From positions 139,503 through 203,502 of the forward strand of contig JAKVBX010000004.1 in the NCBI GenBank assembly GCA_022446795.1: a DNA stretch of 64,000 nt, written 5' to 3'. A program made the translations under genes and the position numbers. The first letter of the stretch is position 1. Each line of letters opens with the position of its first letter. This DNA comes from Phycisphaerales bacterium (GTDB taxonomy: Bacteria > Planctomycetota > Phycisphaerae > Phycisphaerales > SM1A02). Shown piece after piece: positions 16,965 through 44,222 of the stretch. Below the pieces are notes generated by a model. That model saw only the letters and a program-made list of their open reading frames with translations. It ran no database searches and had not been told where the DNA came from.

Positions 16965-17737
16965 GTGAAGAACCACATCTCCTGACTGAAACCAACGGCG
17001 CCGTCGCCGTGATACGCATCAATCGCCCCAAGGTGCTCAACGCCCTGAACCTGTCACTGATGACGGACCTGGCCGAGATGATGGAGGGCTACGACGACGA
17101 TGATTCCATCAACGTCATCCTGCTCGCCGGAACACAGCGGGCCTGGGCCGCGGGCGCTGATATCGGTGACATGGCCTCGGCCTCGGTCAGCGACATGGCC
17201 CAGCGTGATCAGTTCGCCCAGTGGGAACGGATCAAGCGCATCAAGAAGCCGATCGTCGCCGCCGTCAGCGGCTTCGCCCTCGGGGGCGGCTGCGAGCTCA
17301 TGATGCACTGCGATGTCATCATCTGCTCCGAGACGGCCAGGATCGGTCAACCGGAGATCAACATCGGGGTGATGCCCGGTGCCGGTGGAACACAGCGGCT
17401 GACCCGGGCGGTCGGCAAGGCGCTCGCGATGGATGTCGTCCTGTCGGGTCGGTTTCTCTCGGCCCGCGAGGCCATGGACCATGGACTCGTCAGCCGGATC
17501 GTTCCACCGGAACACTGGTTCGAAGAGGCCCTCAAGGTCGCCACGGCGATGGCCGCCAAGCCGGCAACGGCGCTCCGCTATGCGAAGGAAGCCGTCCTGA
17601 AGGCCCACGATCTGTCCCTGAGCCAGGGACTCGAGTACGAGCGCAAGCTCTTCTACATGCTCTTCGATACCCACGATCAGAAGGAAGGCATGACCGCCTT
17701 CATGGAGAAACGCAAGCCGTCCTTTACCGGCCGGTGA
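16961..17737 (+). CDS. paaF: Enoyl-CoA hydratase (2,3-dehydroadipyl-CoA hydratase type)
   Basis: 258-residue crotonase. Both glutamates that activate water in classical hydratases are present, in GGGCELMMHCDV and in GQPEINIG, followed by the oxyanion-hole loop MPGAGGTQRLTR. The sequence ends MEKRKPSFTGR. In the paa pathway it would hydrate 2,3-dehydroadipyl-CoA to 3-hydroxyadipyl-CoA. Assignment to PaaF rather than a general short-chain hydratase rests on context: the next genes are paaG and paaH. Overlaps the thioesterase gene by four bases. Confidence 0.85.
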   Translation: MSEEPHLLTETNGAVAVIRINRPKVLNALNLSLMTDLAEMMEGYDDDDSINVILLAGTQRAWAAGADIGDMASASVSDMAQRDQFAQWERIKRIKKPIVAAVSGFALGGGCELMMHCDVIICSETARIGQPEINIGVMPGAGGTQRLTRAVGKALAMDVVLSGRFLSAREAMDHGLVSRIVPPEHWFEEALKVATAMAAKPATALRYAKEAVLKAHDLSLSQGLEYERKLFYMLFDTHDQKEGMTAFMEKRKPSFTGR

Positions 17738-17754
17738 ACGAAGGAGTGTCGCCC

Positions 17755-18564
17755 ATGACAGGCACCGCCACGCAGTACGAGACGATTGCCGTTGCCACGG
17801 CCGACCAGGTCGCCACGATCACGCTGAACCGGCCCGACGTGCTCAATGCATTCAACGACGCGTTCAGCAAGGAGATGATCGACGCCTTGAAGAATGCGGA
17901 ACGCGATCCGGATGTCCACGTGATCGTGATCACCGGATCCGGCCGCGCCTTCAGCAGCGGACAGGATCTCGAGGACCTGAAGCACAAGTACGTCCCGGGA
18001 CACGTGCCCGAACTCGGCGAGGATCTCCGGCGTCGCTACGACCCCATGATCACCCGTATTCGGTCGATGTCCAAGCCCGTCGTCGCCAGCGTCAATGGCG
18101 TCGCCGCGGGCGCCGGATGCAGCCTCGCGCTGGCCTGCGACCTGCGAATCGCATCGGAACATGCCTCCTTCATCGAGGTCTTCGTGAACGTCGGCCTGGT
18201 TCCGGATTCCGCCAGCACCTGGACGCTGCCTCGACTGGTGGGATGGGGCCGGGCCATGGACATGTGCCTGACCGGACGGAAGGTCAAGGCCGATGAGGCC
18301 CTGGCCATCGGCCTGGTCAACGCCGTCGTCTCCGCCGATGACCTGGAAGCCGAAACCCGGACCCTGGCCACGCATCTGGCGAGTCTCCCCGCCCAGGCCC
18401 TCTCGCTGACCAAGAGGCTCATGAACGAGTCCTACGGTCGCACGCTGGGCGAGCAGTTGGAGGCCGAGGCCTTTGCCCAGGACACGGCCGGCAAGACCAG
18501 TGATCACTTCGAAGGTGTCACCGCCTTCATCGAGAAACGCAAGCCCAACTTCACCGGCCAGTAG
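17755..18564 (+). CDS. paaG: 1,2-epoxyphenylacetyl-CoA isomerase
   Basis: 269-residue crotonase-family isomerase, started at ATG 17755 with AAGGAG ahead. Unlike its neighbour it lacks both hydratase glutamates (GAGCSLALACDL). It keeps the Asp in VGLVPDSASTWTLPR that corresponds to the catalytic Asp of PaaG, so it should isomerise ring-1,2-epoxyphenylacetyl-CoA to oxepin-CoA and shift double bonds of pathway intermediates. The usual Gly-Gly of PDxGGTW is Ala-Ser here. Ends EKRKPNFTGQ, resembling the paaF end, which fits an ancient tandem duplication. Confidence 0.85.
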   Translation: MTGTATQYETIAVATADQVATITLNRPDVLNAFNDAFSKEMIDALKNAERDPDVHVIVITGSGRAFSSGQDLEDLKHKYVPGHVPELGEDLRRRYDPMITRIRSMSKPVVASVNGVAAGAGCSLALACDLRIASEHASFIEVFVNVGLVPDSASTWTLPRLVGWGRAMDMCLTGRKVKADEALAIGLVNAVVSADDLEAETRTLATHLASLPAQALSLTKRLMNESYGRTLGEQLEAEAFAQDTAGKTSDHFEGVTAFIEKRKPNFTGQ

Positions 18565-18567
18565 ATC

Positions 18568-19779
18568 ATGACCTCCAACACCACACTGGGCATTCTCGGC
18601 GCCGGCGCCATGGGATCAGGCATCGCACAGGTGGCCGCCACCCACGGCTGGTCCGTGCGACTCCTCGATCGTGAACCGGACATCGTCAGCCGGGCGCTGG
18701 ACCAGGTCGCGAAGAGACTCGACAGGCAGGTCGAGAAGGGACGACTGGATCGTTCGGCGGCGGACGAGGCCGCACAGCGACTGCATCCGGCGACGTCACC
18801 CACCGACTTCCAGGACTGCGCCGTCGTACTGGAGGCCGTGGTCGAGGATCTCGATGCCAAGGTGGCCGCCATGGCGCCGTTGATCGAGGCGGTCTCCCCC
18901 ACCACGATCATCGCCACGAATACGTCGTCGCTTTCCGTCACGGAATTGGGCGAACGCCTCGGTACGCCCGAGCGGACCTGCGGCATGCACTTCTTCAACC
19001 CGGCACCGATCATGCGACTCGTGGAGATCATCCGTGGTCGCGAGACCGACCAGGAGGTCGTGGATCGAGCGGCCGAGATCGCCGCTGGCTGGGGCAAGCA
19101 CGTGGCCCGCGCAGCGGACACGCCCGGGTTCATCGTCAACCGGGTGGCCCGCCCCTACTACCTGGAGGCCTTCCGCTGTCTCGAGGATGGGTTGGCAACG
19201 CCCGAGATCATCGACGGAACAATGAAGCAACTGGGCGGATTCCGGATGGGCCCCCTGGAACTCACCGACTTCATCGGTCACGACGTCAATACCGCCACGA
19301 CACGTACGGTCTGGACGCAATGGGACAAGCCGTCACGGCTCATGCCAAGCCTGGCCCAGGAGCAACTGGTGGCCGAGGGCCAACTGGGTCGCAAGTCCGG
19401 GCAAGGCGTGTATGACTACTCTGGGGAGACCCCGGTCGCCATCGTCCGTCCCGGACACGATGCCGCGACCATCGCGGCCGGTGACCTGAAGGCCATCACC
19501 GCGTTCATCAGCCAGGCGTCGATCGAAACCGAGAACCCGGTTCAGCAAGTCATCCTGGCCCGCATCCTGTGCGCGATCTTCAACGAGGCGTTGTGGGCCC
19601 GGCACGACGGTGTCGCGGAGCCCGATGACATCGACATCGCGATGCAGTTCGGGGTCAACTACCCCCATGGTCCCTTCAACTGGATGACCACCATCGGCGA
19701 GGACGTGGTTCTAAACACGATGCAGGCGTTGGAACGAATGAGCGGCACCGGGCGTTTCACCCCTCCCGCGGGCTCCTGA
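18568..19779 (+). CDS. paaH: 3-hydroxyacyl-CoA dehydrogenase (3-hydroxyadipyl-CoA type)
   Basis: 403 residues. The Rossmann motif GAGAMGSGIAQVAATHG is at the N-terminus, HFFNPAPIMRLVEII carries the catalytic His, and GFIVNRVARPYYLEAFR opens the helical C-terminal domain, which is followed by a second partial dimerisation repeat. It would oxidise 3-hydroxyadipyl-CoA to 3-oxoadipyl-CoA with NAD. Shorter than E. coli PaaH (475). It begins three bases after the paaG stop and is the last gene of its unit; the following kinase gene appears to have its own promoter. Confidence 0.88.
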   Translation: MTSNTTLGILGAGAMGSGIAQVAATHGWSVRLLDREPDIVSRALDQVAKRLDRQVEKGRLDRSAADEAAQRLHPATSPTDFQDCAVVLEAVVEDLDAKVAAMAPLIEAVSPTTIIATNTSSLSVTELGERLGTPERTCGMHFFNPAPIMRLVEIIRGRETDQEVVDRAAEIAAGWGKHVARAADTPGFIVNRVARPYYLEAFRCLEDGLATPEIIDGTMKQLGGFRMGPLELTDFIGHDVNTATTRTVWTQWDKPSRLMPSLAQEQLVAEGQLGRKSGQGVYDYSGETPVAIVRPGHDAATIAAGDLKAITAFISQASIETENPVQQVILARILCAIFNEALWARHDGVAEPDDIDIAMQFGVNYPHGPFNWMTTIGEDVVLNTMQALERMSGTGRFTPPAGS

Positions 19780-19815
19780 ACAGGACCCGATTCAGTCCGG
19801 TGGTATCCTTGCCCC

Positions 19816-27871: not shown

Positions 27872-29083
27872 ATGGCAAGACGTGCAGCAGTCATCACGGC
27901 CATCCGAACCCCCTTCGGTCGATACGGAGGCACCCTGTCGCCGGTCCGACCCGATGACCTGGCCGCGCTCGTGATCCGCGAAGCCGTCGCCCGCTCGGGA
28001 ATCGACCCGAAGCTGATCGACGAGATCTACTTCGGAGCGGCGAACCAGGCCGGAGAGGACAACCGGAACGTGGCCCGAATGGCAGGCCTGCTCGCGGGCC
28101 TCCCCGAGACCGTTCCCGGGACGACCGTCAACCGGCTCTGCGCCTCCGGCCTGGAAGCCATTGCGATCGCCGCCCGCATGATCGAAGCCGGACACGGAGA
28201 CGTCATGGTGGCCGGCGGTGTCGAGAGCATGAGCCGCGCCCCATTCGTCATGCCCAAGAGCGCCAAGGCCTTTGCCCGGACACCCGAGGTGTATGACACC
28301 ACCATCGGGTGGCGATTCACCAACCCGGCGCTGTCCGCACTTCATCACCCCTACAGCATGGGCGAGACGGCCGAGAACGTCGCCCGACAGTTCAACATCA
28401 CCCGCGAGGAACAGGATCGTTTCGCGGTCCTCAGCCAGCAGCGATGGGCACTCGCGAATGAAATGGGCTTCTTCGCAGACGAGTTGATCCCGGTCGAGAT
28501 TCCCCAGCGCAAGGGTGATCCGATCGTCTTCACGACCGACGAACATCCCCGCCCGGATACGACCATCGAAAAACTCGCCAAGCTTCGCCCGGCCTTTTCC
28601 AAGGATGACGCTGGCACGGTGACGGCCGGCAACAGTTCCGGCGTCAACGACGGTGCCGCGGCCCTGGTCCTTGTCGAGGCGGACCTCGCCCGGGCCCAGG
28701 GGCTGGAACCCCTGGCGATCATCGGACCGTCCGCGTCCGCCGGCGTCGACCCGGCGACGATGGGACTCGGACCAGTACCCGCCACTCGAAAAGCACTGGA
28801 GCGAGCCGGACTGAAAACGGACGATATCGGGCTTTTCGAGCTCAATGAGGCCTTTGCCGCCCAGTCAATTGGGTGCGTGCGCGAACTCGGGATCGACCTG
28901 GAGCGTGTCAATGTCAATGGTGGTGCCATCGCCATCGGGCACCCCCTTGGGGCCTCTGGAGCCCGCCTCGCCGCGACGCTTATTCATGAAATGCGTCGTC
29001 GAAAGGTGGACCGGGGCGTGGCTACACTGTGTGTTGGTGTCGGGCAGGGCCTGGCCACGGTGCTGGAACACCCCGGGAACTGA
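27872..29083 (+). CDS. paaJ: 3-oxoadipyl-CoA/acetyl-CoA C-acyltransferase (thiolase)
   Basis: 403-residue degradative thiolase. The acyl-accepting Cys is in [11 protein letters not shown] (about 90), the His in [15 protein letters not shown] (about 355) and the second Cys in [10 protein letters not shown] (about 388). The N-terminus [18 protein letters not shown] and the [14 protein letters not shown] segment resemble PcaF/PaaJ thiolases. It would cleave 3-oxoadipyl-CoA into succinyl-CoA and acetyl-CoA. It leads the paaJ-A-B-C-D unit, 24 bases before paaA, and is divergent from the TPR kinase. Confidence 0.9.
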
Positions 29084-29107: not shown

Positions 29108-30130
29108 ATGAGCGGTGCAGCCAATCCAGTCAAACCCCTTGAGATGACCGGAAACGAGGACCCGGACAAGCTCGCTGAATTCGAGCAGCGAATCGCCGAC
29201 GGTGTCCTGATCGAACCCGGGGACTGGATGCCCCAGGCCTATCGCATGGGCATGCTGGGCATGGCCGAACACCACGCCAACAGCGAGATCATCGGTGCCC
29301 TTCCCGAGGGCGAGTGGATCACGCGAGCCCCGAGCATGCGGCGGAAGCTGGCCCTGACGGCCAAGGTCCAGGATGAAGTCGGCCACGGCCAGATGCTGTA
29401 CCGGGTTTCACAGGAACTGGGCAAGAGCCGTGATGACATGCTCCGTGACCTGGTCATGGGCAAGACGAAGTACCACAACTGCTTCAACTACCCCGCCCCC
29501 ACCTGGGGTGATATCGCCATGATCCAGTGGCTCATCGACGGCGCCGCGATCATGAACCAGAAGACGCTGGCCGATGGCGCCTACGGCCCCTATGTCCGCA
29601 CGATGAACCGCATCAACATGGAAGAGGCCTTCCACTTCAAGAGCGGAGAGGACATGGTCCTCACGCTGATGAGCGGCACCCGGGCCCAGAAGCAGATGAC
29701 CCAGGACGCCTTCGATCGCTGGTGGCCGGTCTCGCTCATGTTCTTCGGCCCGGCCGACAAGCCGGATGCGGAACAGCGACCCGCCATGCGGTGGCGAATG
29801 AAGGTCGAACGCAATGACTCGCTGCGCCAGCGCTTCATCAATCGATTCGCACCCGCGGCCATGGACCTGGGCCTGGTCATCAATATCGTGACCAAGGACG
29901 AGCAGGGCCTGGTGACGTCGACGAAACCTGACGAAGGCCTGGTTCTCGACGAGACGACCGGCAACTGGTCCTTCACCGAGCCGGACTGGGACGAGTTCTG
30001 GCGTGTCATCCGAGGCAACGGACCGTGCAATGCGCATCGCCTGTCGCTTCGTCGGTTCTCCTACGAGCAGGGTGGCTGGGTCCGCCGGGCCATCGGCGCC
30101 GGTTCGACCTCCATGCCACCGGCAGCGTGA
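29108..30130 (+). CDS. paaA: 1,2-phenylacetyl-CoA epoxidase, catalytic subunit PaaA
   Basis: Ferritin-like di-iron oxygenase subunit of 340 residues (E. coli about 309). The iron ligands are visible as two Glu-x-x-His pairs, DEVGHGQMLY (about 80) and EEAFHFKSGED (about 175). Other conserved stretches are MPQAYRMGMLGM, KTKYHNCFNYP and DRWWPVSLMFFGP. With PaaC and PaaB it epoxidises the aromatic ring of phenylacetyl-CoA using O2 and electrons from a reductase. AAGGA precedes the start. No paaE reductase gene follows, unlike the E. coli operon. Confidence 0.95.
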   Translation: MSGAANPVKPLEMTGNEDPDKLAEFEQRIADGVLIEPGDWMPQAYRMGMLGMAEHHANSEIIGALPEGEWITRAPSMRRKLALTAKVQDEVGHGQMLYRVSQELGKSRDDMLRDLVMGKTKYHNCFNYPAPTWGDIAMIQWLIDGAAIMNQKTLADGAYGPYVRTMNRINMEEAFHFKSGEDMVLTLMSGTRAQKQMTQDAFDRWWPVSLMFFGPADKPDAEQRPAMRWRMKVERNDSLRQRFINRFAPAAMDLGLVINIVTKDEQGLVTSTKPDEGLVLDETTGNWSFTEPDWDEFWRVIRGNGPCNAHRLSLRRFSYEQGGWVRRAIGAGSTSMPPAA

Positions 30131-30136
30131 GCGACC

Positions 30137-30748
30137 ATGTCGAAGATCCGCGAACGACAGTTCAACCATGACGGCGAACTTCCGCCGGGTACACCGGATA
30201 CCCAGCATTGGGTCGTCTACACCCGCAAGAAGGAAGGCAACCCCTTCAAGTGGGCTGGCTCCCTGAATGCCCCGGACCTGGAACTGGCTATTCAGTTCGC
30301 GGGCGAGCACTACGGACTGGATGAAGCCTGCATCGCCGTCCTGGTCCACCATGCCGATGACCGGACCGACGGCCCCTGCGGGCTGGAACCACTGGAACCC
30401 GGGACGGCCGATGGCGACGATGGCTCGGACTGGACGGTCCTTGTTCTGCCACGCCGTGGCGGCAACCTCCAGGAAGCGGGCACGATCAAGGCGCCCGATG
30501 CGGAAACCGCCATCGCCCGTGGAACCCGAGCCCATGCCAATGGGAAGATCGTCCAGGTCTGCGTCGTTCCGACGGATCGGACGGTCGTAATCACGGGTGA
30601 TCACGACACACTGATCTGGCGCCTGCATGACATGACGTACAAGTTCGCCCGGGGCTACAGCAAGGATGTCCGCGCCAAGTGGACCCGCATCCGCGACGAA
30701 GAGACCTACGAGGACTATCGCAAGGAGGACATCCACTCGCACTTCTGA
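30137..30748 (+). CDS. paaB: PaaB-type epoxidase subunit with duplicated PaaB domain
   Basis: 203 residues, twice the usual PaaB length (about 95). Residues 24-72 (HWVVYTRKKEGNPFKWAG, then SLNAPDLELAI) are a PaaB-like module. Residues 98-151 (DWTVLVLPRRGG, then AGTIKAPDAETAI) repeat the same pattern with AG(S/T)(L/I)xAPDxExAI aligned. A charged C-terminal tail (about 160-203) follows. In E. coli PaaB bridges two PaaAC units; a tandem version could replace a homodimer. It starts six bases after paaA. Confidence 0.85.
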   Translation: MSKIRERQFNHDGELPPGTPDTQHWVVYTRKKEGNPFKWAGSLNAPDLELAIQFAGEHYGLDEACIAVLVHHADDRTDGPCGLEPLEPGTADGDDGSDWTVLVLPRRGGNLQEAGTIKAPDAETAIARGTRAHANGKIVQVCVVPTDRTVVITGDHDTLIWRLHDMTYKFARGYSKDVRAKWTRIRDEETYEDYRKEDIHSHF

Positions 30749-30769: not shown

Positions 30770-31534
30770 ATGGATGCAATGCTCGCCGATCCCCTGGCCG
30801 TCCTCGTCCTCGCCCATGCCGATGACAAACTGCTGCTCGGTCACGTCCAGAGTGACTGGACGGGCCTGGGCCCCCTGCTGGAGGAGGACATCGCCGCCTC
30901 CGCCATGTCCCAGGATGATCTCAGCCACGCCCTGATCCTCTACGAGTTCCTGGGCAAGCGATTTGACCTGGATCCTGACGTGATCGCCTTCGAGCGGGCC
31001 CCCGAGGACTACGCCTGCTGCGACCTGGTGACGTTCCCCGATGAGTTCGACTGGGCCACCTCGCTCGTCAAGCGATGGCTCGTCGCCGTCTTCACGGGAC
31101 TGGGCCTTGAGCGACTGGGTACGCTCGACGATGCCGACCTGTCCGCGCGGTGCGACCGCATCATGCCGGAACAACGTCTCCAGGTGGCTCACCTGGGCAA
31201 CTGGATCCGACGGCTCGGCAGCGCCGGTGGTGAATCGACCGCCCGGATGCAGGCCGCGGTCGACCGTGTCGCCGAGGTGACCGGCACGCTCTTCGAGGTT
31301 CCCGGCCATCGATTGGAAGAGGACGAGACCTACTGCTGCGGTCGTGATGACCTGTTCACGGAATGGAACGGGATCGTGCAGGCCACGCTCGCAGAGGCCG
31401 GCCTCACCGGTACGTTCACACTCCCGGAACGGTCCACCGTCGGCGGCCGACGAGGCACCCATGCCGGGCACTTCACGGAACAACTCACCGAGATGACCGA
31501 GGTCCGTCGGGTCTCGCCCGGGGCCTCGTGGTAA
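30770..31534 (+). CDS. paaC: 1,2-phenylacetyl-CoA epoxidase, structural subunit PaaC
   Basis: 254-residue ferritin-like partner of PaaA. Characteristic stretches are LAHADDKLLLGHVQSDW, EEDIAASAMSQDDLSHA, YEFLG, and the AHLGNWIRRLG helix. The C-terminal part carries RRGTHAGHFTEQLTEM. PaaC has the same four-helix fold as PaaA but normally lacks a working di-iron site. Its stop overlaps the paaD GTG start (31528) by seven bases. Confidence 0.92.
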   Translation: MDAMLADPLAVLVLAHADDKLLLGHVQSDWTGLGPLLEEDIAASAMSQDDLSHALILYEFLGKRFDLDPDVIAFERAPEDYACCDLVTFPDEFDWATSLVKRWLVAVFTGLGLERLGTLDDADLSARCDRIMPEQRLQVAHLGNWIRRLGSAGGESTARMQAAVDRVAEVTGTLFEVPGHRLEEDETYCCGRDDLFTEWNGIVQATLAEAGLTGTFTLPERSTVGGRRGTHAGHFTEQLTEMTEVRRVSPGASW

Positions 31535-32025
31535 CCGAGCAGGACATTCGAAAGGTGCTCTCGGGTATTCCCGACCCCGAGCTTCCCGTGAGCATCGTGG
31601 ATCTCGGCCTGGTCAAAACCGTCCACGTCGAGCAGTCCGTTGTCCGTGTCGACCTGCTTCCAACCTGGACGGGCTGTCCGGCGCTCGAAGTCATTGCAAA
31701 GGATGTCGAATCGCAGGTCGCCGCCCTGCCGGGCGTGGACACGTGCACCGTGACCTGGTGCTACGAACCGGCCTGGTCACCGGACCGCATTTCTGCGGAG
31801 GGCCAGTCGATCCTCAAGGCCCACGGGATCACCTCGCCGGGCTGTTGCTCGGAGGCACCGACCACCATTCCCCTGGGGACCTCGTTCATCGCCTGCCCCT
31901 ACTGCGGCAGCAATGAAACCCGCCTCGACAGCCCCTACGGACCGACTCGCTGCCGCTCCATCCACTTCTGCGAGTCCTGCCGGAACCAGTTTGAGCACAT
32001 GAAAGCGGTCGATCTGGAGCCCTGA
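31528..32025 (+). CDS. paaD: PaaD: MIP18/DUF59 domain with C-terminal zinc ribbon
   Basis: 165 residues from GTG 31528, the same length as E. coli PaaD. The N-terminal DUF59 domain begins EQDIRKVLSGIPDPELP and contains IVDLGLVK and TWTGCPALEV. The C-terminus has paired Cys motifs (CPYCGSNETRLDSPYG, then CRSIHFCESCRNQF) of the PaaD zinc ribbon. PaaD is needed to mature the epoxidase, probably in Fe-cluster assembly. An upstream extension to 31363 would lie wholly within paaC and is not needed. Confidence 0.9.
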   Translation: MVTEQDIRKVLSGIPDPELPVSIVDLGLVKTVHVEQSVVRVDLLPTWTGCPALEVIAKDVESQVAALPGVDTCTVTWCYEPAWSPDRISAEGQSILKAHGITSPGCCSEAPTTIPLGTSFIACPYCGSNETRLDSPYGPTRCRSIHFCESCRNQFEHMKAVDLEP

Positions 32026-32049: not shown

Positions 32050-33210
32050 ATGACCACGACTGCCAGGCCATCCCACCCGGTGGCTGATTCCCTGTCCGAG
32101 ACGACCCCTGACGAATCCGGCCGCATGGACACTACCCCGATTGATCTCGGCCATATCGAGGTCCTGCAAGTCCTCGACGAGCAGGGCCATGTCGACGAGT
32201 CCCGCGACCCCGGGCTCAGCGATGCCGAACTGCTGGCCGTGCACCGGGCGATGGTGCTCACCCGGGCATTCGACTCCCGCATGCTCACCATGCAGCGGCA
32301 GGGCGAGATGGGGACGTTCGCGCCGAATCTCGGGCAGGAAGCCTGCATGGTCGGCCAGGTCTGGGAACTCACGAAGCAGGACTGGTTCAGCCCGTCCTAT
32401 CGCTCTTTCGGAGCGCAGATCCAACGAGGCTGGCCCATGGAACGGCTGTTCCTGCTGTGGGCCGGATACCACGAGGGCTTCCCCCCGCCCGAGGGCGTCA
32501 ACGACATGCCCTTCTCGATCGTGATCGGATCACACGTGCTGCCGGCCGTGGGGATCGCCATGGGCATCCGCCGTCGAAAGGACAACCATGCCGTCGTCGT
32601 GAACTTCGGCGATGGCGCCATGTCCCAGGGCGCCGTGAGTGAAGCCATGAACTTCGCCATGGTCGACCAGGCCCCGGTGGTGTTCGTCTGCGAGAACAAC
32701 GGTTGGGCCATTTCCACGCCATCGAAACTGCAGTTCGCGACCGAGCACCTCGCCGGGCGCGGAACCGGATTCGGTCTGCCCTCCATCCGGGTCGACGGTA
32801 ATGACATCCTCGGCATGATTGTCGCCATGCGGGAAGCCACGAGGCGAGCCCGCGAGGGCGAAGGTCCGACGTTCGTGGAGGCCCTGACCTATCGACTCAG
32901 CCTGCACACCACCGCAGACGATCCCAAGGTCTACCGCGACGATAGCGACATGGAACCCTGGCAGGATCGATGCCCGTTGGCGCGAATGGAGAAGTTCCTG
33001 CAGCGCCGCGGTCTGCTCACCAGCGAAGCTGCTGCTGCCGTGACCGCCGAATGCGAAGCGGAGGTCCTGGAAGCCCGTGAGAAGTTCCGGAAGATCGCCA
33101 AGGCCCGCCCCCGGGAGGTCTTCAACCATCTCTATCGATCCACCCCAGCCGAGTTGGACGCCCAGCGGGAGGAATACCTGCGTCGTCTCGATCGAAAGGG
33201 CGTGGACTGA
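32050..33210 (+). CDS. 2-oxoacid dehydrogenase E1 component, alpha subunit
   Basis: 386 residues. The thiamine-diphosphate motif runs from FGDGAMSQGAVSEAMNFA to CENNGWAISTP (about 185-220), and RYRSFG-like substrate contacts appear as SPSYRSFGAQ. The phosphorylation-loop region reads YRLSLHTTADDPKVYRD. Such E1alpha/E1beta heterotetramers act on pyruvate, branched-chain or other 2-oxoacids; sequence alone does not fix the substrate. Its place directly behind paaD suggests phenylpyruvate as a candidate (inference). The stop shares a base with the E1beta start. Confidence 0.9.
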   Translation: MTTTARPSHPVADSLSETTPDESGRMDTTPIDLGHIEVLQVLDEQGHVDESRDPGLSDAELLAVHRAMVLTRAFDSRMLTMQRQGEMGTFAPNLGQEACMVGQVWELTKQDWFSPSYRSFGAQIQRGWPMERLFLLWAGYHEGFPPPEGVNDMPFSIVIGSHVLPAVGIAMGIRRRKDNHAVVVNFGDGAMSQGAVSEAMNFAMVDQAPVVFVCENNGWAISTPSKLQFATEHLAGRGTGFGLPSIRVDGNDILGMIVAMREATRRAREGEGPTFVEALTYRLSLHTTADDPKVYRDDSDMEPWQDRCPLARMEKFLQRRGLLTSEAAAAVTAECEAEVLEAREKFRKIAKARPREVFNHLYRSTPAELDAQREEYLRRLDRKGVD

Positions 33211-34193
33211 TGGCCCAATGCACGATGGTCGAGGCCCTGAACCTGGCGCTGGATGAAGCCATGGCTGCCGATGACGGCGTGATGGTCATGGGCCAGGACG
33301 TGGGCGTCAACGGCGGCGTCTTCCGCGTGACCAAGGGGTTGTTCGAACGCTACGGCCACGACCGTGTGATGGATACACCCCTGGCGGAGTGCGGCATCAT
33401 CGGCACCGCCGTCGGGATGTCCGTCTACGGACTGAAGCCCGTGGTTGAGATCCAGTTCTCGGGTTTCACCATGCAGGCCTTCGACCAGATCGAGCAGAAC
33501 ATGGCCCGGCTTCACAACCGGACGATGGGTCGATTCCAGATGCGCATGGTGCTGCGAACGCCATTCGGCGGCGGCATTCGCGCGGTGGAACATCACAGCG
33601 AATCACGCGAAGCGTACTGGGCGCACACCCCGGGCCTGAAGGTGGTCATTCCATCCGGCCCCCGGAACGCTCGCGCCCTGCTGGCCTCGGCCATCGATGA
33701 CCCGGACCCGGTGATCTTCTACGAACCCAAGGCCGTCTATCGCGCCTTCCGGGAAGACGTGCCCGAGCAACGCGAGACGATGCCCATCGGCGTCGCCGAG
33801 ATCGTCCGACCAGGCAAGGACCTGACGCTCATCAGCTATGGCGCGATGATGCGACCGGCCCGCGAAGCCGTGGAGGACCTCGCCGACGAACATGGCCTCG
33901 ATGTGGAACTCATCGACCTGCTGACCGTCTCCCCGATGGATACCGCCACCCTCTGTGACTCCGTGTCCCGGACCGGCCGCTGCGTGATCGTTCACGAGGG
34001 TCACCGGACCTGCGGGATCGCTTCGGAAATCATCGCACGGCTCAACGAGACGGCCTTCGAGTACCTGGAGGCACCCATTCGTCGCCTGACGGCCTATGAC
34101 ATTCCGTTCCCCTACTTCCAGACCGAGCAGCACTTCCTTCCCGATGCCGATGACATCGTGGAGGCGGTCCGCGAGACGATGGCGTGGGAGTGA
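33210..34193 (+). CDS. 2-oxoacid dehydrogenase E1 component, beta subunit
   Basis: 327 residues beginning AQCTMVEALNLALDEAMAAD. Typical stretches are GQDVGVNGGVFRVTKGL, TPLAECGIIGTAVGMS and LRTPFGGGIRAVEHHSES, with the catalytic-loop His. The C-terminal transketolase domain contains RCVIVHEGHRTCGIASEI. It forms the alpha2beta2 E1 with the preceding gene. Two bases separate it from the E2 start at 34196. Confidence 0.92.
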   Translation: MAQCTMVEALNLALDEAMAADDGVMVMGQDVGVNGGVFRVTKGLFERYGHDRVMDTPLAECGIIGTAVGMSVYGLKPVVEIQFSGFTMQAFDQIEQNMARLHNRTMGRFQMRMVLRTPFGGGIRAVEHHSESREAYWAHTPGLKVVIPSGPRNARALLASAIDDPDPVIFYEPKAVYRAFREDVPEQRETMPIGVAEIVRPGKDLTLISYGAMMRPAREAVEDLADEHGLDVELIDLLTVSPMDTATLCDSVSRTGRCVIVHEGHRTCGIASEIIARLNETAFEYLEAPIRRLTAYDIPFPYFQTEQHFLPDADDIVEAVRETMAWE

Positions 34194-34195
34194 CC

Positions 34196-35536
34196 ATGCC
34201 GACTACCAGAGAATTCAAGCTTCCTGACCTGGGCGAAGGTGTCCATGAAGGCCAGGTCATGCGCCTGCTTGTCTCCGAGGGGGAGCAGGTCGCCGAGGAC
34301 CAGCACATCATGGAGGTGGAGACCGACAAGGCTGCGGTCGAGATTCCCTCCCCGGTCACGGGACGCGTCCAGCGCATCCATGTCGAGGAAAAGCAACTGG
34401 TTCACGTCGGCGACGTGATGTTCACCTTCGAGTCCGATGAGGCCTCGGCACCCGGCACACCAGCGCCGGAGCCGTCGAGCACGCCAGTCCAGTCCAGTCG
34501 ACCCGCCCCACCACCGCGATCAGGGACGGGGCGTCGAACACCAGCTTCACCCTCCGTTCGGCGATTGGCCCGGCAGATGGGGATCGAGATCAGCACGGTC
34601 CAGGGATCCGGCCCGGGTGGCCGCGTGACCCGACGGGACCTGGAACAGCACGGGACAACCACGGTCCCCACTCCACCCCCCGCCCCGGTCATTCCCGCGA
34701 CACCGACAGCACCCACGACGCCAACAGCCGCCCCGGCTCCCCAGGCTGTTCCGGCAACGCCGGTCGTCTCCAGGGCACCGAGCCCGCCGGCCTCGGCGCT
34801 GGCCCTCGACATCGAGGGTCGCGTTGACACCGATCACTATGGAGAGATCGTCCGGGCGCCACTCACCCAGGCACGCAAGGCCATCTCGCAGGTGATGAGC
34901 ACTGCCTGGATGACGATCCCACATGTGACGGACTGCAATGACGCCGACATCACGGAACTGGAGACCCTCCGCCGGAGCTTCCAGGATCCGGGTCGACCGG
35001 AGCGACGGATCACGACGCTCGCCTTCGTCATTCGCGCGGTCTGTCGCGCCCTGTCGACATTCCCGATCCTCAATGCCTCGCTGGATGAAACCAGCGGCGA
35101 GATCATCTTCCGCCGATACGTGAACATCGGCATCGGCGTGGACACGCCACGAGGACTGGTCGCCCCGGTCATCCGCAATGCCGATCGCATGGGCGTCGGA
35201 GAACTCGCCGATCACCTGCAGGTCATCGGCGACAACGCCCGCAACGCGACCTTCTCGATCGAGGATACGCGTGGCGGCACGTACACGATTTCGAACGCCG
35301 GCGCGATGGGCCAGACGCGGTACTCAACACCGATCATCACGCCCGGCCAGGTGGCCTGCCTTGCGGTAGGTCGAGCCCGGAAGATGCCCTGGGTCGTCGA
35401 CGACGAGGTCGTCCCCCGGCTGATCCTGCCGCTGAGCCACTCCATGGATCACCGGCTGGTGGACGGGGGACGTGAAGTGCCCTTCATCGGGCATGTCATT
35501 GACGACCTGGAGAATCCCATGCGATTCATGCTTTGA
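34196..35536 (+). CDS. 2-oxoacid dehydrogenase E2 (dihydrolipoamide acyltransferase)
   Basis: 446 residues. An N-terminal lipoyl domain (3-77) has the lipoylated Lys in VETDKAAVEIP. A Pro/Ser-rich linker leads to an E3/E1-binding domain (about 120-155, SPSVRRLARQMGIEIS). A second Ala/Pro/Thr-rich linker follows, then the catalytic domain from about 210, ending with the active-site HRLVDGG. One lipoyl domain and this layout are like branched-chain-type E2. The E3-binding domain is intact, yet no intact E3 gene lies in the window. MPTTREF was preferred as the start over a GTG at 34184 that overlaps E1beta. Confidence 0.93.
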   Translation: MPTTREFKLPDLGEGVHEGQVMRLLVSEGEQVAEDQHIMEVETDKAAVEIPSPVTGRVQRIHVEEKQLVHVGDVMFTFESDEASAPGTPAPEPSSTPVQSSRPAPPPRSGTGRRTPASPSVRRLARQMGIEISTVQGSGPGGRVTRRDLEQHGTTTVPTPPPAPVIPATPTAPTTPTAAPAPQAVPATPVVSRAPSPPASALALDIEGRVDTDHYGEIVRAPLTQARKAISQVMSTAWMTIPHVTDCNDADITELETLRRSFQDPGRPERRITTLAFVIRAVCRALSTFPILNASLDETSGEIIFRRYVNIGIGVDTPRGLVAPVIRNADRMGVGELADHLQVIGDNARNATFSIEDTRGGTYTISNAGAMGQTRYSTPIITPGQVACLAVGRARKMPWVVDDEVVPRLILPLSHSMDHRLVDGGREVPFIGHVIDDLENPMRFML

Positions 35537-35562
35537 TCGCCCGTTCCCGGAAGGAAGATCCC

Positions 35563-38048: not shown

Positions 38049-39194
38049 GTGGTCGTCGGTGAATTTTCACAAGATGCAGAGGTACTGGTCGTCGGTGCCG
38101 GCCATGCGGGCCGAGCGGCGGCCCGAGCAGCTGCCGCGTTGGGCAAGCAGGTCATCCTCGTCGACCCGCAGGCCGAGGTCGTGATTCCCGATGTTGAGGT
38201 ACTGACGGGAAGCGTTCGATTCGTTGACAAGCGATCCGTCCAGGTGACCGGCGAGCATGTCTCGCGTGTTCGATTCACTCGCGCCATCATCTGCACCGGC
38301 TGTCGCCTCGGGCCGGCCGACTTCCGCGGGCTGGACGCCACCCGGGCTCCCTGGGATCGGTGCGACGACAGTGTCCTGGTCACGGGCTCGGGCCCGCTGG
38401 CCCTGTCGACCGCCTGCCGACATGCCAAGACCGGAGCCGATGTCGTCCTGGCCTGCCCCCGATCCAGCCTGCTGCCCAGCTTCGATCCCGTTCTCGCGGG
38501 CGTCGTGGTCGATCACCTGGCTGGCAGCCAGGTGGATCTTCTTCCGGATGTCGAGTTTGCCGGTGCGACGCCGGAATCCGATTCCGTCCGCGTGGTCCTG
38601 GGTGATGGCACCGTCCTGGGCGAGTTCGACTGGGTCATCCCCGCGGAACCTGACGGTGGTCTGGTCGAGACACTTGAGTTGAACAACACTGCTGTGGAGG
38701 TTGATGACCAGGGGTGGATCCAGGTTGATGATGTCGGTGCCACGGCCGAGCACCGTATCCGCGCCGCCGGCGGTGTCACCGGTCGTGCGCTGGAGCCGGC
38801 AGTAGCCCGGCGACATGGCCAGGTTGTTGCGGCGGCCACCTGCGACGCCGATGCCAGTTGGGACCCGGTTGCGATCCCGTCATACGTGGACGCTCCTCTC
38901 CCCGTGAGTTGGTGTGGCCTGAATGAGGCCGCCGCCGAGTCCCAGGGTCACGAGACCAGCAGTACCGGAATCGGCGAGGGAACCCAACTCGTCCGTCTCG
39001 TGCATGATCGTTCCAGCGGGCTGCTCCTGGGCGCGGGCGGCTCGGGACCCGCCGCCCGGATCGTCGCGGAAGCCACGGTCATCGCGATTGAAATGGGCGC
39101 CACCATCGAGGATCTCGCAGCCGTGATCTCGGCAGAGACCGACGGACCATCCCTCGCGGATGCCGCCCGTGCGGCCTGGAAACAACCCTCGTGA
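38049..39194 (+). CDS. Degenerate dihydrolipoamide-dehydrogenase (E3)-like protein
   Basis: 381 residues (a normal E3 has about 460), GTG start with GGGAG upstream. The FAD Rossmann motif VVGAGHAGRAAA is present. The segment that should follow, containing the redox disulfide (GGTCLNxGCIPSK in E3), is missing: the chain jumps from LGKQVILVDPQ to a GEHVSRVRF/AIICTG region. The NAD fold reads LVTGSGPLALS. The FAD-contacting Gly-Asp is AAGGV, so the Asp is lost. The C-terminal dimerisation domain is recognisable (SWCGLNEAAAESQG, TIEDLAAVISAET), but the catalytic His-Pro of AHPT is replaced by TDGPS. So it is an E3 homologue without catalytic residues. Located 2.5 kb after the E2 gene. Confidence 0.75.
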   Translation: MVVGEFSQDAEVLVVGAGHAGRAAARAAAALGKQVILVDPQAEVVIPDVEVLTGSVRFVDKRSVQVTGEHVSRVRFTRAIICTGCRLGPADFRGLDATRAPWDRCDDSVLVTGSGPLALSTACRHAKTGADVVLACPRSSLLPSFDPVLAGVVVDHLAGSQVDLLPDVEFAGATPESDSVRVVLGDGTVLGEFDWVIPAEPDGGLVETLELNNTAVEVDDQGWIQVDDVGATAEHRIRAAGGVTGRALEPAVARRHGQVVAAATCDADASWDPVAIPSYVDAPLPVSWCGLNEAAAESQGHETSSTGIGEGTQLVRLVHDRSSGLLLGAGGSGPAARIVAEATVIAIEMGATIEDLAAVISAETDGPSLADAARAAWKQPS

Positions 39195-39701: not shown

Positions 39702-40301
39702 TCAGCGTCCAGCCGACTTCTTCGTTTCATACAGGACATCCGGTACGCGCGGTCGATCAGGTTCAACCTGTGACAGGGGTTCGCACTCGTGCCCCGTCGC
39801 CGCATGGCGCCTGGCCAGGTGCTGGTAGACCTCGGTCCCCCGGCTTTTCCAGCCGATCTCCTTCTCGGAGAGTTCCCGGATGAGCTTCGCGGGTGATCCC
39901 GCGAACAACGTCGCCGGTGGAATCTCGGTCCCTTCCTTGACGAAGGCCAGGGCACCGACGATGGAATTCTCCCCCACCACCACGTCGTCCATCAGCACCG
40001 CGTTGATGCCGATGAGGGCATTTCGACCCACGCGGCATCCATGCAGGACTGCCCCATGGCCGACATGTCCATCTTCCTCGATGACCACGTCCTTGCCGGG
40101 GAAGCAGTGCACGACGCAGGTGTCCTGGATATTGCTGCCCGCCTTCATTTCCAGCCGTCCGATGTCACCCCGCAGCACGGCATTGGGACCGACCAGGCAG
40201 CCGGCCCCGATGATCACGTCACCGATCAACACCGCCGTCGGGTGAACGAACGCGGTCTCATCAACGACCGGGCGAACGCCTTCGTACTCGTAGCACGGCA
40301 T
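39702..40301 (-). CDS. paaY: PaaY-like gamma-carbonic-anhydrase-family hexapeptide-repeat protein
   Basis: 199 residues forming a left-handed beta-helix: repeated hexapeptides such as [20 protein letters not shown] and [15 protein letters not shown]. Zinc ligands typical of the family are in CVVHCFPG and [12 protein letters not shown]. PaaY of other bacteria is a thioesterase that protects the paa pathway from dead-end CoA thioesters. The C-terminal extension ([12 protein letters not shown]) also matches PaaY. It shares ATGA with the upstream paaN gene, confirming one operon. An unspecified gamma-CA is the alternative. Confidence 0.88.
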
Positions 40302-41989
40302 CAGCCCACCGTCTCCTCGACCGCGGCCGGAACCGGAACGCGGCAGGCAACCGTTCGGAAGCGGCCGGCGACGTACGCCGTGTCACAGAGCGTGGCGTTG
40401 CCGGAGGGATTGGCCCCCGAGACATGGAAGTCACTGAAGGCCGCTGACTGGTTGACCCAGATGTGTCCCGTGAGATTGCAGGACGTAGCCACACCGGCGT
40501 CGGTCATGGCATCAACGGCCTGCTCGATCACGGCATCGTCACGGCTGTAGACGACACAGGTCAGTCCACCGTGCTGCCTGGCGCCGTCCGAGGCCAGGGC
40601 GATCGACTCCTCCGTGCTCGCCGTCTTCACGATGTACACGATGGGACCGAACATCTCCCGCTGGAAGACACCCGTGTCACTGCTGTCCACCTGGACGACC
40701 AGGGGTGTCGCCGTGCGGGCGTCCGCGAACCGCTCGTTCTCAATGGCTCCGGAGGGGCGAAGAACCTTCCCGGTGGCCGCCTTCTGCACACGGGTCGCCG
40801 TATCCTCGGATTGGATCGCACCGCAGACCTCCGCCGCCCGAGCTGGATCCGAAAGGAACCAGTCCAGGGCCTTGATGATCGCGGCGGCCGTGTCATCGAA
40901 GGAGACCCGCCCATCAGGCGTATCGATGCCGTCGGCCGGAATGTAGATGTTCTGCGGCGTGGTGCACATCTGTCCCGAGTACAGGCTGAGCGAAAACGCC
41001 ATGTTCCCGGTCAGGGCCTTGAGGTTCTCACAGCCGTCCAGGATCGCCGTGTTGATGCCCGCCTTCTCGGTATAGACCTGGGCGTGCCGAGCGTTCTCCT
41101 CGATCCAGTCACCGAATGCATTGCCACCCGTGAAGTCGACGATGCCGACCTCGGGCCGCATGACCAGGTCCTGCGCCACCGGCGAGTCCGGTGTATCGCA
41201 GGCCATCGTGACGACGTTGGGATCGAAGCCCGCCTCCGACAGGACCTCGCGGGCAATCGTCGCCGTCAGGGCCAGGGGCAGCACGGCACCGGGGTGTGGC
41301 TTGATGATCACCGCGTTCCCGGTGGCGAGACTCGCGAAGATGCCTGGATAGCTGTTCCAGGTCGGGAACGTCGAGCAGCCGATGGTCACGGCCACCCCGC
41401 GGGGAATGAGGCGGAAGGTCTTGTCCAGCGTGACCGTGTCCGTCTTGGACACCCGCTTGGTCCAGGTGGCGTGGGACGGACAGTGGTTCATCTCGCGCCA
41501 CGCATAGGCCAGTGCTTCCAGTCCACGGTCCTGCGCGTGCGGACCACCGGCCTGGAAGGCCATCATGAAACCCTGGCCCGTCGTATGCATGACCGCGAAG
41601 CCCATCTCGAAGGACCGACGGTTGAGGCGATGCAGGATCTCCAGGCAGACGCCCACGCGACATTCGGGCGTCGCCCGTTTCCAGGAATCCATGGCAGCGG
41701 CTGCTGCCGAGACCAGGACATCGAGATCCGCCTGGGGATAGGTCGTGCCGGTCTCGATGCCATACGGAGAACGTTCGCTGCCGACCCAGTCGACCGTGCC
41801 AGGCTGGTCGATCTCGAATCGGTTGCCCAGGGTCGACTTCCAGGCGGCCAGGCCATCGTCGCGAGCCGTCTCTCCGTAGATCTTTCCGCTGGGAACCTCG
41901 GGGTAGGCCGCCCAGAATTCGCGGCTGTCGATGGCAGTAAGCGCCGCTTCCAGCGTCTGTTGGTGGCGTTGGAACATTTCGTGTGACAC
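40301..41989 (-). CDS. paaN: PaaN: aldehyde dehydrogenase of phenylacetate degradation
   Basis: 562 residues from GTG 41987-41989, with AAGAGGTG upstream. ALDH-superfamily protein of the PaaN type: [20 protein letters not shown] in the NAD-binding half, [17 protein letters not shown], and the nucleophile Cys in [16 protein letters not shown]. The C-terminus has SFSDFH-like [17 protein letters not shown]. It would oxidise the semialdehyde formed on ring opening of oxepin-CoA to 3-oxo-5,6-dehydrosuberyl-CoA. Unlike PaaZ (about 680 aa) it has no C-terminal MaoC-type hydratase domain. Overlaps paaY by four bases. Confidence 0.9.
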
Positions 41990-42048
41990 CGGTTTGCACC
42001 TCTTGAGGGGGCGGAATGAAGCCGCGTCTCATCGTCGCGATCGGGCGT

Positions 42049-42084
42049 ATTGTAGCGCAGCTTTCATCGAAGCTGGGCTACAAT
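42049..42084. promoter_or_regulatory. Divergent promoter inside a 15-bp near-perfect inverted repeat
   Basis: ATTGTAGCGCAGCTT at 42049-42063 and AAGCTGGGCTACAAT at 42070-42084 are inverted copies with one mismatch and a six-base spacer. The outer six bases of each arm give TACAAT reading outwards, so the repeat places one -10 element before paaN (42049-42054, leftward) and one before the permease gene (42079-42084, rightward). It could be an operator for a dimeric repressor as well as a symmetric promoter. Confidence 0.65.
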
Positions 42085-42131
42085 GGCATCCGCCACCTGC
42101 AGGCGACGGCGGCGCAACGGATTGCACCCCC

Positions 42132-44222
42132 ATGGCTGGCCCTTCACAAGCCAATTTACGCAAAGACATCTCCCTGCTGGGCGTCTTTACCCTCTCCCTG
42201 GGGACGACGATCAGCAGTGGGTTCTTCCTGCTGCCCGGGATCGCCTTCTCCAAGGTCGGGCCCGCGATCCTGCTGTCGTACCTGCTGGCCGGCATGGTCT
42301 TCATCCCCCCGCTGCTGTGCAAGTCGGAACTGGCGACCGCCATGCCCAAGGCGGGCGGAGCCTACTTCTACCTGGATCGCGCCTTCGGGCCCATGATTGG
42401 TGCCGTCGCCGGCCTGAGTACCTGGATCTCGTTGACGCTGAAGACGTCGTTCGCCCTGGTGGGATCGGGCTTCTACATCGGTCTCTTCCTTGACGACCCA
42501 CCCATCCTGCTCATCGCCATCGGCTTCGCGATCTTCTTCGGCATCGTCAATACGGTCGGTGTCGGCAAGACCACGAAGATGCAGGCCTTCCTGGTCCTGG
42601 CCGTCATCGGCATGCTGGCCTGGTTCATTGTCCAGGGCGGCGTAAACGTCAACACCAGCCACTTCGATGACTTCCTGGGAGAAAGTGGTTTCACGATCGT
42701 CTCGATGACCGGCGTTGTCCTGGTCTCGTACATGGGACTGACCAAGGTCGCCAGCGTCGCCGAGGAGGTCCGGGACCCGGAACGCAATATCCCGCTCGGC
42801 ATCATCCTGGCCTTGATCTGCGCGATCCTGATCTACCTCTGCGGCATCGCCGTGATGATCGGGACCGTACCCGCCGAGGAACTCGCCACTACGTACACGC
42901 CGGCCGCGTTGGCTGCGGAAGCCTTCGCTGGGCGTGGTGGCATGATCGTGATCTCGATTGCCGCACTCGCCTCGTTCCTGTCCGTGGCCAACGCCGGCAT
43001 CCTCAGCGCCTCGCGATATCCCATGGCGATGAGCCGGGATCACATGATCCCAAGCATCTTCCGGCGACTGGGTCGCTTCGGAACCCCGGTACCCGCCATT
43101 GCCCTGACGGTCTCATTGATCATCGTGCAGATTCTTGTCCTGGATCCCCTGGTGATCGCCAAGTACGCCGGCACGATGAAACTGCTCCTCTTCACGATGC
43201 TGAGCATTGCCCTGATCGTGATGCGAGAGAGCAAACTGGACTCCTATGACCCCGGCTACAAGGTCCCCTTCTACCCCTGGCTGCCCATGATCGGCATCCT
43301 CGGCTGCCTGCTGGCCATGATCTTCCTCGGGTGGGTCCCGATCGTCTTTGCCGCCAGCCTGGTCGTCGTCGGCATCATCTGGTTCCGGGCCTATGCCGCG
43401 CCGCGGGTCCGGCGAGAGGGTGCGATCTATCACCTGTTCTCCCGGCTTGGTCGGCCCGACTACGACCCGCTGGATATCGAGTTGAGAGGCATCATCAAGG
43501 AGAAGGGACTCCGCCCCACCGACCCCTTTGACGAGATCATCGCGCGATCCCATGTCCTGGAATGCCAGCCCGACGACTCGTTCAGCAGCATCGCCTCCAA
43601 GGCTGCCCGCGTCCTTTCCGAGGAGACCGGCCATGCCGAGGAGGAATTCCAGAAGATGTTCCTGGAGGGAACACGGGTCGGCGCCACACCGGTCATGGGC
43701 GGCGTCGCCCTGCCTCACCTCCGGATGGACGGACTGAACCGACCACACCTGGTGCTGGTCCGCTGCCGGGAACATCTCGACGTCGAGGTCGGCTACGGAA
43801 CCGCCGAGTCGATGCACATGGCGCATGTCCATGCGCTCTTCTTCATGGCCAGCCCGGACTCCGACCCCACGCAGCATCTCCGCCTCCTGGCCAGCCTGGC
43901 GTCCGCGGTCGAGCAAGATGGTTTCATGAACCGGTGGTTGGAGGCGGACACACCGGCGGGCCTCAAGGCCGCGCTCCTGCGAAATGACAGGAGCATCACG
44001 CTGGCCATCGAGGACCGTGGCCCCTGCCGAGCCTGGATCGGCAAGCCGCTTTCGCAGATCGAGTTCCCGGAAGAGGTCCTGGTCGCCCAGATCTACCACC
44101 AGGGTGAACGACACGTGCCCACCGGCAAGACGGTTCTGGCCGCTGGCGATCACGTCATCGTGATCGGTGAAGCGGCGGGGATCGCCGCCTTGCGGGAACA
44201 GTTGGAACTGGACGCGTCCTGA
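42132..44222 (+). CDS. APC-superfamily amino-acid permease fused to PTS-IIA-like and TrkA-C-like domains
   Basis: 696 residues. The first 425 or so form about 12 membrane spans of the APC family; the first helix has the unwound motif region GTTISSGFFLLPG and a PKAGGAYFYLDRAFG follows. After a linker comes a type-2 PTS EIIA-like domain (about 460-615). Its conserved GVALPH contains His529, the position phosphorylated in true EIIA proteins. Residues 625-696 are a TrkA-C-like ligand-binding domain (RAWIGKPLSQIEFP, AGDHVIVIGEA). The fusion suggests a transporter gated by phosphorylation state and a small ligand. Divergent from paaN. Confidence 0.88.
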   Translation: MAGPSQANLRKDISLLGVFTLSLGTTISSGFFLLPGIAFSKVGPAILLSYLLAGMVFIPPLLCKSELATAMPKAGGAYFYLDRAFGPMIGAVAGLSTWISLTLKTSFALVGSGFYIGLFLDDPPILLIAIGFAIFFGIVNTVGVGKTTKMQAFLVLAVIGMLAWFIVQGGVNVNTSHFDDFLGESGFTIVSMTGVVLVSYMGLTKVASVAEEVRDPERNIPLGIILALICAILIYLCGIAVMIGTVPAEELATTYTPAALAAEAFAGRGGMIVISIAALASFLSVANAGILSASRYPMAMSRDHMIPSIFRRLGRFGTPVPAIALTVSLIIVQILVLDPLVIAKYAGTMKLLLFTMLSIALIVMRESKLDSYDPGYKVPFYPWLPMIGILGCLLAMIFLGWVPIVFAASLVVVGIIWFRAYAAPRVRREGAIYHLFSRLGRPDYDPLDIELRGIIKEKGLRPTDPFDEIIARSHVLECQPDDSFSSIASKAARVLSEETGHAEEEFQKMFLEGTRVGATPVMGGVALPHLRMDGLNRPHLVLVRCREHLDVEVGYGTAESMHMAHVHALFFMASPDSDPTQHLRLLASLASAVEQDGFMNRWLEADTPAGLKAALLRNDRSITLAIEDRGPCRAWIGKPLSQIEFPEEVLVAQIYHQGERHVPTGKTVLAAGDHVIVIGEAAGIAALREQLELDAS

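Follow-up and report, generated by a model that had tools for sequence, protein, structure and literature searches.

How does phenylacetyl-CoA arise in a bacterium that carries the genes for its breakdown but no dedicated ligase for its formation? The question is raised by a stretch of 64,000 nucleotides (hereafter the window) from a Phycisphaerales bacterium (assembly GCA_022446795.1), in which genes for the E1α, E1β and E2 subunits of a 2-oxoacid dehydrogenase complex follow directly upon paaD. In the classical paa pathway, PaaK activates free phenylacetate at the cost of ATP. An initial annotation, made from the sequence of the window alone, had pointed out that this ligase is missing there and had proposed that the E1-E2 complex makes phenylacetyl-CoA from phenylpyruvate, with neither ligase nor ATP. 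Our analysis lends support to this proposal. Because the linkage with the paa genes is conserved, the E1α proteins form a separate clade, PaaK and indolepyruvate:ferredoxin oxidoreductase (IOR) are absent and aminotransferase or permease genes lie nearby, conversion of phenylpyruvate to phenylacetyl-CoA appears to be the best reading. Judging from gene context and sequence comparison, we consider it probable that the complex is a dedicated aryl-2-oxoacid dehydrogenase performing this reaction.

The absence of the ligase extends over the whole source genome (3.54 Mb, 96% complete, with the window on contig C34): the best match to the PaaK family TIGR02155 reaches 46 bits, as compared with a cut-off of 646, and resides in a generic FadD-type ligase. 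None of the 38 genomes that carry the E1α clade described below has a PaaK above the cut-off, and 28 of the 33 genomes with a paa-linked copy have no match at E≤1e-20. PaaK was also sought in the gaps of 2-4 kb that separate paaD and E1α in four loci (L082, L086, L088 and L110), and tblastn found no resemblance to it in the open reading frames (ORFs) located there. For IOR, the best match in the source genome is 33 bits against a cut-off of 651. The coupling to the paa genes is thus found in 38 of 44 loci without another recognized source of phenylacetyl-CoA, as far as PaaK in the 38 genomes and IOR in the source genome are concerned.

Gene set and conserved linkage with paa genes

The three genes central to the question are the following:
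32050..33210, + strand: E1α of the proposed phenylpyruvate (aryl-2-oxoacid) dehydrogenase (PF00676, 238 bits; TIGR03181, 408 bits)
33210..34193, + strand: E1β (PF02779 and PF02780, both transketolase-like domains)
34184..35536, + strand: E2, dihydrolipoyl acyltransferase (PF00364 lipoyl, PF02817 E3-binding and PF00198 catalytic domains)

The E1α score for TIGR03181 falls slightly short of the cut-off of 411 bits. PF00676, PF02779 and PF02780 are above cut-off and the GDG...ENN and YR motifs are kept, so that the thiamine diphosphate (ThDP)-dependent E1 subunits are intact. The catalytic domain of E2 bears the motif HSMDHRLVDG, and an in-frame ATG at 34196 offers an alternative start for this protein. 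The position of the set directly behind paaD, already noted in the initial annotation, was confirmed: paaD ends at 32025, 24 bp ahead of E1α, and E1β shares one base with E1α and also overlaps with E2. Because of this short gap and these overlaps, the three genes are predicted to form one transcription unit with paaABCD.

A scan with an E1α alignment, covering one genome per GTDB species, yielded 56 loci, nearly all of them from Phycisphaerae. All genomes compared are metagenome-assembled genomes (MAGs). In the named genome collection, those closest to the window are without exception Phycisphaerales/Phycisphaerae MAGs of the phylum Planctomycetota; the carriers are uncultured bacteria from ocean and sediment. 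Fifty-four loci belong to the clade; at least 4 kb of upstream sequence is present in 44, and in 38 of these paaD is situated directly upstream of E1α. E1β follows E1α in 41 of 46 loci. The usual order is paaF-G-H-J-A-B-C-D-E1α-E1β-E2-(thioredoxin-fold)-E3-paaY-paaN, to which a permease gene is added in the wider lineage of the window. This linkage is not a matter of chance, and the arrangement is old and conserved.

The linkage also holds in G025, a planctomycete of another class. Here, paaF, paaG and paaH precede paaJ, and E1α-E1β-E2-E3 directly continues a run of paaA, paaC, paaD, a gene for a PaaE-type reductase and paaX. PaaX is the repressor of the phenylacetate operon. E1β of the window is 87-92% identical to that of its nearest relatives, 64% identical to that of G025 and 53% identical to its own paralogue of the branched-chain 2-oxoacid dehydrogenase (BCKDH) type, while E1α shares 52% identity with its G025 counterpart. 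Maintenance of the linkage at 52% and 64% identity is strong evidence for a shared function.

The linkage is not seen throughout the class. A survey of Phycisphaerae found paaA in 65 of 397 genomes, and among 40 paaA neighbourhoods examined E1 is adjacent in 8, to which the window is to be added; if only the family of the window and a second family from its order are counted, the figure is 8 of 9. Phylum-wide, paaA occurs in 4 of 294 genomes; of these, G025 alone counts as a case independent of the window genome, for which reason co-occurrence was not used as statistics. Six genomes from other Phycisphaerae contain an unlinked E1α copy of the clade, and five of them still carry paaA.

Some loci of the survey deserve separate mention. 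E1α genes of the same clade without adjacent E1β or paa genes occur at L114 (10001-11068), L115, L117, L118 and L123; paaA is present at another site in most of the genomes concerned, and E1β-like genes are located on separate contigs. A second type of PaaA, about 50% identical, is encoded in short paaA-paaC-paaD sets at L201-L220 (families f95, f104 and others of the class), with no paaJ, E1 or PaaK gene nearby and, in L214, near gyrA. Locus L108 (WYBR01000033.1) is labelled Vicinamibacteraceae (Acidobacteriota), yet its cluster falls among planctomycete sequences, with L125 as the closest one; it probably stems from a mislabelled planctomycete genome.

Other 2-oxoacid dehydrogenases and the substrate of E1

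Three further E1 enzymes, on which the initial annotation was silent, are encoded in the genome. A canonical pyruvate dehydrogenase (PDH) with E1α (TIGR03182 418 bits, above cut-off), E1β and E2 as well as 2-oxoglutarate dehydrogenase are located on contig C17, and a BCKDH-like E1α-E1β-E2 set is found on contig C12 right after a gene for a leucine/phenylalanine-type dehydrogenase. The genome totals four E2 catalytic domains, three E1α-type subunits and one SucA-type E1. Since PDH, BCKDH-like enzyme and 2-oxoglutarate dehydrogenase are all provided for elsewhere, the paa-linked set represents an extra complex.

The E1α phylogeny that the initial annotation had suggested as a check agrees with this picture. 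In a maximum likelihood tree of 88 sequences, all paa-linked E1α proteins and the six unlinked copies form a single clade with support of 100/100, and the PDH and BCKDH-like E1α proteins of the same genome are placed outside it. The reference sequences (human BCKDH, Thermus, and Geobacillus PDH) sit on long branches, and the relations between the deep groups are unsure. The complex is therefore neither the sole one of its genome nor part of a housekeeping PDH or BCKDH clade. A clear place in such a clade as the only complex of the genome is what the initial annotation had regarded as fatal to its proposal, which this check does not refute, and identification of the complex as the genome's own PDH or BCKDH can be rejected. 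At L105, a PDH-type E1α/E1β pair (28% and 35% identical; 19447-21182) shares its contig with the paa/E1 cluster and follows just 3' of this cluster and of paaN.

Can E1 tell its substrate? Among solved structures, 1w85/3duf (PDH) and 1dtw (BCKDH) are the nearest. Published docking for human BCKDH identified αPhe85, αMet87, αTyr113, αMet146 and αLeu164 as hydrophobic side-chain contacts (PMC12655727). In the paa clade, the position of the bulky Phe85 is taken by Thr and that of the likewise bulky Met87 by Ala in 51 of 51 sequences each, Tyr113 is retained, Met146 is represented by Pro, Ile, Val or Leu, and Leu164 by Ile or Val. Residues S119, F120, W128, F144, F155 and N185 of E1α (window numbering) are fixed or nearly fixed and specific for the clade, with F120, F144 and F155 near the Phe85/Met87-equivalent positions in sequence; Y136/W137 are clade-specific in E1β. 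These changes are compatible with, and at most suggestive of, a roomier and more aromatic pocket. The motif RQG[EQ]MGTF, which contains the Thr in place of human Phe85, was considered as a marker for phenylpyruvate and discarded, as the BCKDH-like paralogues share this Thr.

The same residue bears on the possibility that the complex is a branched-chain oxoacid dehydrogenase, either broad in range or the second of its kind, for the oxoacids of leucine, isoleucine and valine or a mixture of them, with phenylpyruvate as a side substrate at most. Its location would then be explained by the fact that both pathways channel amino-acid carbon into CoA esters. Besides the Thr shared with the BCKDH-like clade of the same organism, the TIGR03181 type fits this explanation, being common to BCKDH and Firmicute-type PDH. 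Against it stand the PDH and the BCKDH-like complex that the genome already possesses, the latter beside a Leu/Phe-type dehydrogenase, the separate position of the paa clade with its many specific residues, and the locus itself, where paa genes occupy both flanks and no genes for valine, leucine or isoleucine catabolism were identified. We judge this explanation unlikely.

Equally, the pocket changes indicate size and aromatic lining rather than one particular ring, and the epoxidase of this clade may have another specificity. The main substrate might thus be another aromatic oxoacid, 4-hydroxyphenylpyruvate or indolepyruvate, with hydroxyphenylacetyl-CoA or indoleacetyl-CoA entering a Paa-like route. 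As paaABCD, paaJ, paaN and paaY match families of the phenylacetyl-CoA pathway and the gene adjoining E1α in G025 is paaX, we regard this option as very unlikely.

Proposed route from phenylpyruvate to phenylacetyl-CoA

Besides E1 and E2, the proposed route needs a dihydrolipoyl dehydrogenase (E3) and a supply of the oxoacid, and two further genes of the window have to be considered in this respect:
38049..39194, + strand: E3-derived flavoprotein without the redox-active CxxxxC segment (TIGR01350, 95 bits; cut-off 409)
41931..44222, + strand: amino-acid permease of the APC family (PF00324/PF13520), fused to EIIA (PF00359) and TrkA_C (PF02080)

The E3-like gene belongs to the paa-E1 run and was not mentioned in the initial annotation. 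The copy devoid of CxxxxC occurs in the window as well as in L071-L074 and L076, which are its closest relatives, and we take it to be a decaying or repurposed E3. In most members outside this lineage an intact dihydrolipoyl dehydrogenase, with CxxxxC and often a C-terminal HPHP, is encoded 3' of E2 and completes the gene set, which speaks in favour of the proposed function. The sole true E3 of the source genome lies on contig C7 (517 bits) and, being the only one, would have to serve all complexes. Two thioredoxin-fold (AhpC/TSA-ResA-like) proteins of 365-384 residues with long C-terminal extensions are encoded at 35533-36687 and 36843-37940; in the marine lineage, insertion of these genes separates E2 from the E3-like gene, and the first product gives a weak TPR signal.

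With regard to supply, an aminotransferase gene is found on the same strand about 0.5 kb or more 5' of paaF in L106, L107, L108 and L125, and a different aminotransferase is encoded divergently from E1α in L092 and L094. The permease, which combines its transport domain with domains resembling EIIA of the phosphotransferase system (PTS) and with TrkA_C, adjoins paaN in many relatives. Aminotransferases and permease would point to a 2-oxoacid derived from an amino acid, phenylalanine being named by neither family.

In the scheme that we propose, phenylalanine would be imported and transaminated to phenylpyruvate, by a cluster-encoded aminotransferase in some relatives. The E1α2β2 heterotetramer would decarboxylate phenylpyruvate on ThDP and load the phenylacetyl moiety onto the E2 lipoyl domain, and E2 would then transfer it to CoA. 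The housekeeping E3 from contig C7 would reoxidize the lipoyl group with NAD+, PaaABC would epoxidize the resulting phenylacetyl-CoA, and the other Paa enzymes would complete its degradation. Such a route would require neither ligase nor ATP. We further lean towards the view that an NAD-linked, aerobic phenylpyruvate dehydrogenase that arose from a BCKDH/PDH-type ancestor constitutes the obligate entry into the paa pathway in these Phycisphaerae, and that phenylpyruvate derived from phenylalanine, but not free phenylacetate, is degraded by what would be a rewired paa pathway devoid of PaaK.

Several observations weigh against this scheme. The E3 copy linked to the cluster of the window is degenerate, no aminotransferase gene was found in that cluster, and the Thr at the Phe85 position, common as it is to the BCKDH-like clade of the same organism, is not diagnostic. 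Other families of Phycisphaerae possess paaA, often in a reduced paaA/C/D set, with neither E1 nor PaaK in the stretch examined, so that not every paaA carrier has the linked E1, and genomes without this E1 may lack a linked PaaK as well. Moreover, at least one FadD-type ligase, encoded on contig C78 of the source genome, might act on phenylacetate, and 5 of the 33 linked genomes contain a PaaK-family ligase with 154-251 bits, under the cut-off. With scores this far from 646 bits these proteins are unlikely to be true PaaK; the nearest solved structure of the member from G025 is 2-hydroxyisobutyryl-CoA synthetase. The paaA carriers with neither E1 nor PaaK nearby, the FadD-type ligase and the PaaK-family ligases would also fit if an unrecognized AMP-forming acyl-CoA ligase elsewhere in the genome activated phenylacetate and the linked complex had another or a nonspecific role. 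This would, however, leave unexplained why E1α-E1β-E2-E3 has been retained between paaD and paaY/paaN across such divergence; 28 of 33 linked genomes, moreover, are devoid of any PaaK-family match at the threshold given above. We therefore hold an unrecognized ligase to be improbable and maintain phenylpyruvate dehydrogenase as the preferred function.

The reaction itself is not new. In the phenylglycine (pristinamycin) pathway of Streptomyces pristinaespiralis, the pyruvate dehydrogenase-like PglB/PglC has been proposed to convert phenylpyruvate to phenylacetyl-CoA (PMC7089894, PMC10685826). The type of E1α/E1β and the proposed reaction are the same, but PglB/PglC is biosynthetic and belongs to an antibiotic cluster whose genes are listed as pglA-E, with no dedicated E2 or E3 by this description, whereas the complex of the window would be catabolic, has its own E2 (and ancestrally E3) and is firmly embedded in a paa cluster. 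IOR, which has been described in Pyrococcus and suggested for Desulfococcus, converts arylpyruvates to arylacetyl-CoA anaerobically and without a ligase (PMC5109826). It thus catalyzes the same net reaction but is an oxygen-sensitive iron-sulfur enzyme that reduces ferredoxin. With BCKDH and Geobacillus-type PDH, the complex has architecture and mechanism in common, while its clade is separate, its gene neighbourhood is different and clade-specific residues occur near the YR motif and the substrate loop. The classical paa pathway, finally, is represented by paaF, G, H, J, A, B, C and D as well as paaN/paaY; the window genome differs from it by lacking PaaK, and a relative of PaaE was found in none of the E1-linked loci other than G025.

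In the literature searched, which lay mostly outside subscription journals, we found no description of a catabolic phenylpyruvate dehydrogenase feeding the paa pathway. With PglB/PglC as the biosynthetic and IOR as the anaerobic precedent, it seems to be the catabolic, NAD-linked complex as entry into this pathway that is undescribed. If our proposal is correct, phenylalanine carbon would enter directly as the CoA ester with a gain of NADH, and free phenylacetate would be avoided. Tools for pathway calling would misread such a cluster as an incomplete paa pathway. The 2-oxoacid dehydrogenase family would gain a dedicated catabolic member for aryl-oxoacids, for which the change in specificity could be traced on the tree beside PDH and BCKDH.

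The paa genes and their neighbours in the window

The remaining genes of the cluster and its interruptions are:
16961..17737, + strand: probable paaF, enoyl-CoA hydratase (PF00378, 257 bits; same position as paaF of relatives)
about 17760..18564, + strand: probable paaG, enoyl-CoA isomerase/hydratase (PF00378 over residues 195-447)
18568..19779, + strand: probable paaH, 3-hydroxyacyl-CoA dehydrogenase (PF02737, PF00725)
19816-23799, + strand, and 24719-~27600, - strand: Ser/Thr kinase-like genes (WD40 repeats in one, TPR repeats in the other)
27872..29083, + strand: paaJ-like thiolase (pcaF/paaJ family, 569-572 bits, slightly below the cut-offs)
29108..30130, + strand: paaA, phenylacetyl-CoA epoxidase subunit (TIGR02156, 379 bits, above cut-off)
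30137..30748, + strand: paaB-like epoxidase subunit of 203 residues (PF06243, 48 bits, above cut-off; TIGR02157 below)
30770..31534, + strand: paaC (TIGR02158, 139 bits, above cut-off)
31528..32025, + strand: paaD (TIGR02159, 143 bits, above cut-off)
39702..40301, - strand: paaY, hexapeptide protein (TIGR02287, 287 bits, below the cut-off of 320)
40301..41989, - strand: paaN-type semialdehyde dehydrogenase (TIGR02288, 802 bits, above cut-off)

Both the epoxidase genes paaABC(D) and those for the downstream β-oxidation steps are therefore present. PaaA, PaaC, PaaD and PaaN pass the equivalog cut-offs, PaaB the Pfam cut-off only. Along the forward strand, paaF, paaG and paaH are followed by the kinase genes and then by paaJ, paaA, paaB, paaC, paaD, E1α, E1β and E2. 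On the same strand 3' of E2 come the two thioredoxin-fold genes, the E3-derived gene and a small hypothetical gene, beyond which paaY and paaN lie on the reverse strand and the amino-acid permease gene again on the forward strand.

Two starts were reassigned. The real start of paaG lies inside the ORF 17221-18564 and was taken at residue ~180, the product sharing 60% identity with the PaaG region of G025. For paaD, which the ORF list had extended to 31363, a GTG at 31528 within the 3' end of paaC is the likely start. PaaB, with its 203 residues, has about twice the usual length, and the match to the PaaB family is confined to residues 23-72; its second half possibly represents a duplicate. In the lineage of the window, the two very large Ser/Thr kinase-like genes separate paaH from paaJ and so interrupt the paa cluster.

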